Positions 63,578 to 64,000 of a DNA stretch of 64,000 bases are shown here, in pieces. The position numbers were made by a program, and so were the translations under genes. The stretch is from NCBI GenBank assembly GCA_030374765.1, contig JARGXX010000022.1:992001-1056000 (forward strand). Reading direction: 5' to 3'. The notes beneath the pieces are model-generated. The model was given only the letters and a program-made list of their open reading frames with translations. It was not told the origin of the DNA and searched no databases. Every line of letters starts with the position of its first letter. Position 1 is the first letter of the stretch. This DNA is from Agarophyton chilense. Lineage: Eukaryota; Rhodophyta; Florideophyceae; Gracilariales; Gracilariaceae.

Positions 63578-64000
63578 ATGGCTCGCACTAAGCAGACGGC
63601 TCGCAAATCTGTTGGCGGAAAAACCCAACGACGCCAGCTTGCAGGCAAAGCGGCAAGAATTACAAGCGAGACACATCTTGTCCAATACCTTAACAAGAAT
63701 ATTGTCAAGCTTCTCTGTTCCAAACCGCAGCGCAGCGTGAAAAACATCTACGCAATCACTTTCGAGGGCAGCATTAACCTCGTGCGGTTTAGCGAAAACG
63801 AAGCCATTGTTCTGCTCGGGCGCAGGATAACTCATTTTATCCGACAATATCGTGGAATGCAATTTGGAGGGTTGATGCTGTTCCGATTGGGTCTTATAGA
63901 GCCATTGGATGACGAAGACGATCCCGATACCAGTATTAAGTATAACGATTGGATGATCGAGAAGGTATGGTTGTCGAGAGGGGGTCGTGGTGAGATTAAG
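63578..64000 (+). CDS. H3-tail-bearing protein (histone H3 N-terminal mimic or fusion), incomplete at window edge
   Basis: It is open from the ATG at 63578 to the last base (141 codons, no stop). The in-frame TGA at 63509-63511 has no ATG after it before 63578. After Met, residues 1-26 read [19 protein letters not shown] then LAGKAAR, against canonical H3 [19 protein letters not shown] then LATKAAR; 21 of 26 match. It keeps R2, T3, K4, R8, K9, S10, K14, R17, K23 and R26. K18 is Arg, and position 27 is Ile with Thr at 28. From residue 29 nothing matches H3: there is no GVKKPHRYRPG neck and no histone-fold helices. It instead has [51 protein letters not shown] and an acidic [20 protein letters not shown] at about 63961 could be a splice donor. 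I do not recognise the second domain. Confidence 0.7.
   Translation, partial: [141 protein letters not shown]

Follow-up and report, generated by a model that had tools for sequence, protein, structure and literature searches.

A histone H3-like tail on an antisense open reading frame of a Ty1/copia retrotransposon in the red alga Agarophyton chilense

We analyzed a 64,000-nucleotide stretch (the window; G000:C22:992001-1056000) of the 79.8 Mb, 135-contig assembly of Agarophyton chilense, at the right edge of which an open reading frame (ORF) encodes a protein that begins with a long match to the tail of histone H3. As expected of a red alga, the assembly contains 15 phycobilisome matches, 14 of them on contig C39. 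A first-pass annotation took this ORF for a single host gene onto which an H3 tail had been grafted. We find instead that it is one decayed copy of a repeated ORF in a Ty1/copia long terminal repeat (LTR) retrotransposon. Placed between pol and the 3' LTR, the ORF is encoded on the other strand from gag-pol and converges with pol; purifying selection has acted on it as a protein whose N-terminus mimics the H3 tail. On balance, we favor the view that it is an antisense accessory gene of the element, and that its H3-tail mimic engages H3-tail-binding proteins and likely blunts silencing.

An ORF that begins with an H3-like tail

Inside the window the antisense ORF occupies 63578..64000 on the + strand (141 codons, uninterrupted from an ATG at 63578). 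Its first 84 bases (63578..63661, + strand) encode Met and the equivalents of H3 positions 1-27. The annotation had correctly placed the tail directly after the ATG with 21 of 26 residues identical when Met is set aside; with Met included, residues 1-28 are identical to the host H3, which is encoded by three genes, at 22 of 28 positions. K4, K9, S10, K14 and K23 are kept, as first described, and the position of K27 holds Ile next to R26. A phmmer search of the Protein Data Bank (PDB) with the window protein returned 132 sequences at E up to 10 (best E 4.9e-6). Among the 60 of these 132 that were listed, all are H3 or H3 peptides (one is labelled Cse4) and the matches are confined to residues 1-32 at most, in agreement with a long H3-tail mimic placed right at the N-terminus of a protein that is not a histone. 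Residues 29-141 match no Pfam family above cut-off, so no histone fold follows the tail, as had been anticipated, and no histone family was matched in proteins P0001 or P0040. Residues 36-112 form a middle domain (63683..63913, + strand) that belongs to no sequence family, and for which a low-confidence model of a sister protein gives only a weak chromo- or chromoshadow-like hint. A separate case is P0024, an 81-residue database protein without a Pfam family, which has an H3-tail start at its N-terminus, part of which is repeated further on.

A splice site that had been suspected near 63965 is not borne out: the frame reads through, related copies code across the position and there is no sign of an intron. 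Past 64000 the frame does stay open, reaching ~64393 in window numbering (272 codons in all); at ~64395 this truncated copy loses homology to the other copies and runs into DNA shared with loci L010 and L016 (at other positions). The full protein, of ~441 residues, consists of the tail, the middle domain, a C-terminal Cys-His-Asp module and a basic C-terminus. Cys, His and Asp are conserved in papain order (alignment A4), with Asp invariant, His in 11 of 12 pieces and Cys in all 9 pieces that extend over it; in L010 the His is replaced by Tyr. Given weak structural matches to papain-like proteases, found with a low-confidence model, the module looks protease-like and is a candidate papain-like cysteine peptidase.

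The ORF is repeated in the genome. A genome search with the 141-residue query gave 99 matches at E up to 10, a number in which several matches may share one copy, the three H3 genes are included and the weakest matches are to a sister family. We also searched with a 30-base degenerate pattern that represents the beginning of the tail; allowing up to 2 mismatches, it occurs at 39 places in the genome, compared with 0 for the reversed control, so the tail is present beyond chance. We sorted these places by hand, leaving out C7:651949 and C25:1006133. Three are the H3 genes, one (C96) directly precedes a histone match, four come from another repeat, which carries a decayed H3 exon, and 29 fall on other places matched by the query, so that at least 29 start with the tail; five of the 29 are near-identical (C14, C82 twice, C81 and C106). 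Of the places found, we fetched 20 as 10-kb loci and read them at length; each of these 20 H3-tail copies is decayed or truncated. The remainder of the protein is also present repeatedly in the genome, both with the tail and, in sister families, without it. Outside this genome, no relatives of the H3-tail family (tail aside) were found.

The ORF is carried by a copia element

The identity of the carrier as a Ty1/copia LTR retrotransposon of ~7 kb is well supported. Upstream of the window ORF lies the 3' LTR, in the sense of gag-pol, of the element (63051..63258, - strand; G000:C22:1055051-1055258), which is 95% identical to the LTR of locus L023, and a leader from LTR to ATG (63259..63577, + strand) that is aligned in most fetched copies. 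Most fetched copies share a left end and can be aligned from there into the ORF. For 15 of the 19 other loci, LTR and ORF are joined in one alignment; the leader region is broken or missing in L014, L019 and L027, and L020 and L021 end early. In seven of the 20 fetched loci, three of which (L024-L026) are near-identical, a segment of ~208 bp is found again as a direct repeat ~6.8 kb further downstream, and five fetched elements have the same LTR repeat at both ends. In these five the direct repeats measure 191-216 bp and are 94.8, 91.8, 91.1, 86.4 and 79.6% identical, which indicates that the five insertions are not recent. A 5-bp target-site duplication is exact in L023 (GTAAT) and agrees at 4 of 5 bases in L012, L014, L015 and L024. 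The sense strand of L012 adjoining the 5' LTR reads GTTATGGGCCCAGC, which we take to fit priming by a fragment of the initiator Met tRNA.

An RVT_2-type reverse transcriptase (RT) scores above cut-off on the strand opposite to the tail ORF (E 1.6e-23 in L023 and 6.8e-20 in L015), and 5' of it an integrase core (rve) matches below cut-off (E 0.0058) in L015 only among three pieces, being absent from L014 and L023. By hand count, an RT match lies within 3.5 kb of a tail ORF at 25 loci and is on the opposite strand in 25 of 25, with ~1.3-2.5 kb between the ORF start and the nearer RT edge. At three further tail loci (C92:2.18 Mb, C115 and C68) the RT match is 8-12 kb off, again on the opposite strand; the remaining RT matches have no adjoining tail ORF among the matches to the 141-residue query. 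The integrase-side pol piece also has sub-cut-off matches to Tudor_FRX1 in two of the three pieces scanned (L023:5797-7125, E 8.5e-4; L014:6289-7284, minus strand, E 2.7e-3).

The antisense ORF is under purifying selection

We estimated the ratio of nonsynonymous to synonymous divergence (dN/dS) from 25 copy rows, a set that excludes the near-duplicates L025 and L026. Of these, 18 copies have sufficient overlap to give 153 pairs, for which the pooled dN/dS is 0.41. The ratio falls with depth. Its median is 0.66 (0.55-1.04) for the 20 pairs with dS <0.2, 0.49 (0.39-0.76) for the 31 pairs with dS 0.2-0.5, and 0.36 (0.23-0.60) for the 102 pairs with dS of at least 0.5; the young pairs have the look of dead copies, and the deep pairs show constraint. 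Comparisons between the two clades of the family (25 pairs) give dN/dS 0.23-0.30, and the window copy against 22 others ranges from 0.18 to 0.65, the lowest values (0.18-0.20) being those against the other clade's five copies. When the same DNA of the 18 copies is read in the other five frames, the values are 1.04, 1.07, 0.89, 1.11 and 0.49, the last from the frame that shares third codon positions with the real one. The tree of the copies has long terminal branches, a shape that would fit several source lineages leaving dead copies behind.

Constraint extends to the tail. Between clades, dN/dS is 0.31 in the tail, 0.16 in the middle domain and 0.40 in the rest, and the two clades' majority tail codons differ by four synonymous changes and one conservative replacement (R17K). 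We counted tail residues in 27 rows (the 25 copy rows and two more from other loci), in which decayed copies are included and coverage varies by position. H3 residues are kept at R2 (18/23), K4 (22/23), R8 (20/23), K9 (21/23), S10 (18/23), K14 (17/25), Q19 (21/26), K23 (22/26) and R26 (19/26). The usual departures from H3 are T11 to V (16/23), K18 to R (20/25) and T22 to G or S (22/26). The Ile that the annotation saw at position 27 of the window copy is the prevailing state there: K27 is replaced by I in 19 of 26 rows and by V in five (I or V in 24).

Sister families and other H3-like sequences

The sister family L048 has an intact ORF of 424 residues that is 24-25% identical to the H3-tail protein. 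Four of its copies stand at 95% identity or more, two of them free of stops and two interrupted by a stop, and there are older copies besides. A deletion derivative occurs in five places (C96:53278-53964, C88, C77, C100 and C71; L060); it lacks residues 130-322 in frame, leaving an open frame of 276 codons that is 94-100% identical to L048, and has thereby lost the Cys and kept the His-Asp part of the module. The sister protein matches the transcriptome protein GEZJ01002355.1 (EukProt) at 98% over 94%, and its gene is thus transcribed in this alga or a very closely related species. Copia families L061 (RT 52% identical) and L062 (RT 48%) also carry the antisense module but no H3 tail, and so do L056-L059, which were read in part.

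The L048 N-terminus is basic (MAVTRQRVRAQRTRRV...) and matches H3 at 10 of 30 positions, a score that beats its own shuffles (p 0.0003 by score, 20,000 shuffles). Three more sister copies give p 0.008-0.010 by score, although the copies are not independent; L063 against the window tail is not significant (p 0.05 by score, 0.37 by identity). Because sister N-termini match H3 beyond shuffles, the tail-like start may be older than the split of the families.

A different repeat of ~1.5 kb carries the decayed first part of an H3 gene in four copies (L051, L052, L053 and L055; C75:631531-633130, C75:728801-730400, C113:927865-929464 and C115:190951-192350, respectively). Its copies are 86-88% identical in the two pairs compared. 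Against host H3, the decayed first exon aligns over 140-143 bp at 80-81% identity in three copies, and over 200 bp at 76% in the fourth. This repeat is an independent capture of an H3 gene fragment.

Other features of the window

The window holds other large ORFs and repeats. A Gypsy-type polyprotein occupies 537-4817 on the - strand as an uninterrupted frame of 1426 codons, a Copia pol lies at 52688-55450 (- strand), and a sub-cut-off MULE transposase match at 59664-60455 (+ strand). There is a sharp flip in GC skew, from -0.32 to +0.39, in 38001-42000, with short inverted repeats at 39702-39916, and a tandem array of a 140-bp unit (3.6 copies) at 27663-28172.

Discussion

We propose that the protein is probably a nuclear accessory of the element that engages H3-tail-binding proteins to counter silencing. 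An antisense transcript from in or near the 3' LTR would yield the protein, which would enter the nucleus and, upon loss of the initiator Met, expose a free A1 as H3 does. Writers, erasers and readers that bind the H3 tail could then bind this one, and the element would benefit if chromatin silencing were blunted as a result. The aliphatic residue 27 beside R26 could further act as a pseudo-substrate for the E(z) subunit of Polycomb repressive complex 2 (PRC2), as H3K27M does and, more weakly, H3K27I, while the protease-like module, if active, might process or deubiquitinate whatever the tail captures. The hypothesis that the ORF recruits or decoys H3 readers and writers, perhaps in a K27M-like manner, had been raised in the first-pass annotation, and it gains weight from selection on the tail, from I or V at position 27 and from the presence of PRC2 in the host.

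PRC2 is a concrete candidate target because the host encodes it (two VEFS-box and two CXC matches), because H3K27me3 marks genes and repeats in Cyanidioschyzon (PMC5405695), and because H3K27I reduces H3K27me3, if less than K27M does (PMC6562757). The Val found at 27 in five of 26 rows weighs against this part of the proposal: according to PMC6562757 no other substitution inhibits, so Val would not be expected to inhibit PRC2 and a pure K27M-type role is disfavored in those copies. A more elaborate version, in which the tail is bait that traps PRC2 and other tail enzymes and a cysteine protease or deubiquitinase then disables them, strikes us as doubtful. Were it true, K27M/I-type histone mimicry would have evolved naturally in a mobile element.

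Other explanations of the tail were weighed against the same evidence. The one that survives best, although we consider it unlikely, is that the tail is a tether: modified like H3 at K4, K9 and K14, it would anchor the accessory protein to chromatin readers, perhaps together with the integration complex, and thereby direct insertion or nuclear retention, with no anti-silencing role. The best-kept tail positions do include several modifiable residues and the residues next to them, and the Tudor matches on the integrase side of pol suggest that chromatin contact may already belong to the element. However, the antisense protein is separate from gag-pol, with no known interaction, and K27 is replaced in every row, for which pure docking has no need. 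Less probable still is that the papain-like module cleaves H3 itself and that the tail is a built-in pseudo-substrate or propeptide. Such clipping would suit the Cys-His-Asp order and the papain-like structural neighbors, and cathepsin L clips the H3 N-terminus (PMC3938757), but the module is kept without a tail in the sister families and the papain-like fold is not firmly established. We give similarly little credence to the idea that the N-terminus is merely a basic segment for nucleic-acid binding or nuclear import that has converged on the composition of H3. The basic sister N-terminus, with only 10 of 30 residues matching, might be read in this way; the likeness, however, holds position by position and includes the uncharged T3, Q5, T6, A7, G12, Q19, L20, A21, A24 and A25, mostly kept, the PDB matches listed are H3 tails, and the L048 N-terminus itself exceeds its shuffles. 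Finally, functionless chance capture of an H3 fragment, which has occurred in this genome in the ~1.5 kb repeat, is very improbable because of the selection signal: the captured H3 there has decayed, and in L053, the one copy compared, only 41 of the 84 tail bases agree with those of the window ORF, whereas the antisense frame and tail are kept across deep lineages with dN/dS well below 1.

Comparison with known systems

Short histone-tail mimics occur at the influenza NS1 C-terminus, in G9a and in the SNAG domain of GFI1/Snail, in all of which few residues are matched. The present tail likewise imitates H3 in a non-histone protein toward readers, writers and erasers, and like SNAG it is N-terminal, but it matches at 22 of 28 positions and sits in a mobile element. 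Anti-silencing by an element's own protein is known from VANC, which comes from a Mutator-like DNA transposon and is not known to carry a histone mimic. If our proposal holds, the present protein resembles VANC of the Arabidopsis VANDAL transposons (PMC10398659, PMC5735166) as an accessory protein encoded by a transposable element (TE) that counters silencing; unlike it, VANC is sequence-specific, and the portions of these sources consulted describe no histone mimic. The plant Retand elements (Ty3/gypsy) have antisense ORFs between pol and the 3' LTR, with a TRP28 domain and a proposed regulatory role; according to the abstract of PMC11963269, which describes no histone mimic, their role is not established. 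The present element also has an ORF opposite pol, between pol and the 3' LTR, and under selection, but is a red algal copia element in which an H3 tail and a Cys-His-Asp module replace TRP28. With the papain-like cysteine peptidases (AvrPphB, C39 peptidases, staphopain and Josephin) the module has in common the order of Cys, His and Asp and weak structural neighbors in a low-confidence model, but no sequence similarity was found. The oncohistones H3K27M and H3K27I (PMC6562757) share with the tail an aliphatic residue 27 after R26 in an H3-like context, whereas the present protein is not a histone, differs beyond residue 28 and is a putative PRC2 inhibitor.

Our survey of titles and abstract openings in the open-access literature found no previous description of an H3 tail encoded by a TE. 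For most antisense accessory ORFs of LTR elements no role is established, and the H3 tail points to chromatin as the target of this one, which is directly testable biochemically. If the reading of position 27 is right, mobile elements reached the oncohistone trick independently, and red algae, in which repeats of Cyanidioschyzon bear the PRC2 mark, would offer a setting for studying an arms race between TEs and PRC2. Even without it, this is a natural, long, N-terminal H3 mimic maintained by selection in a selfish element.
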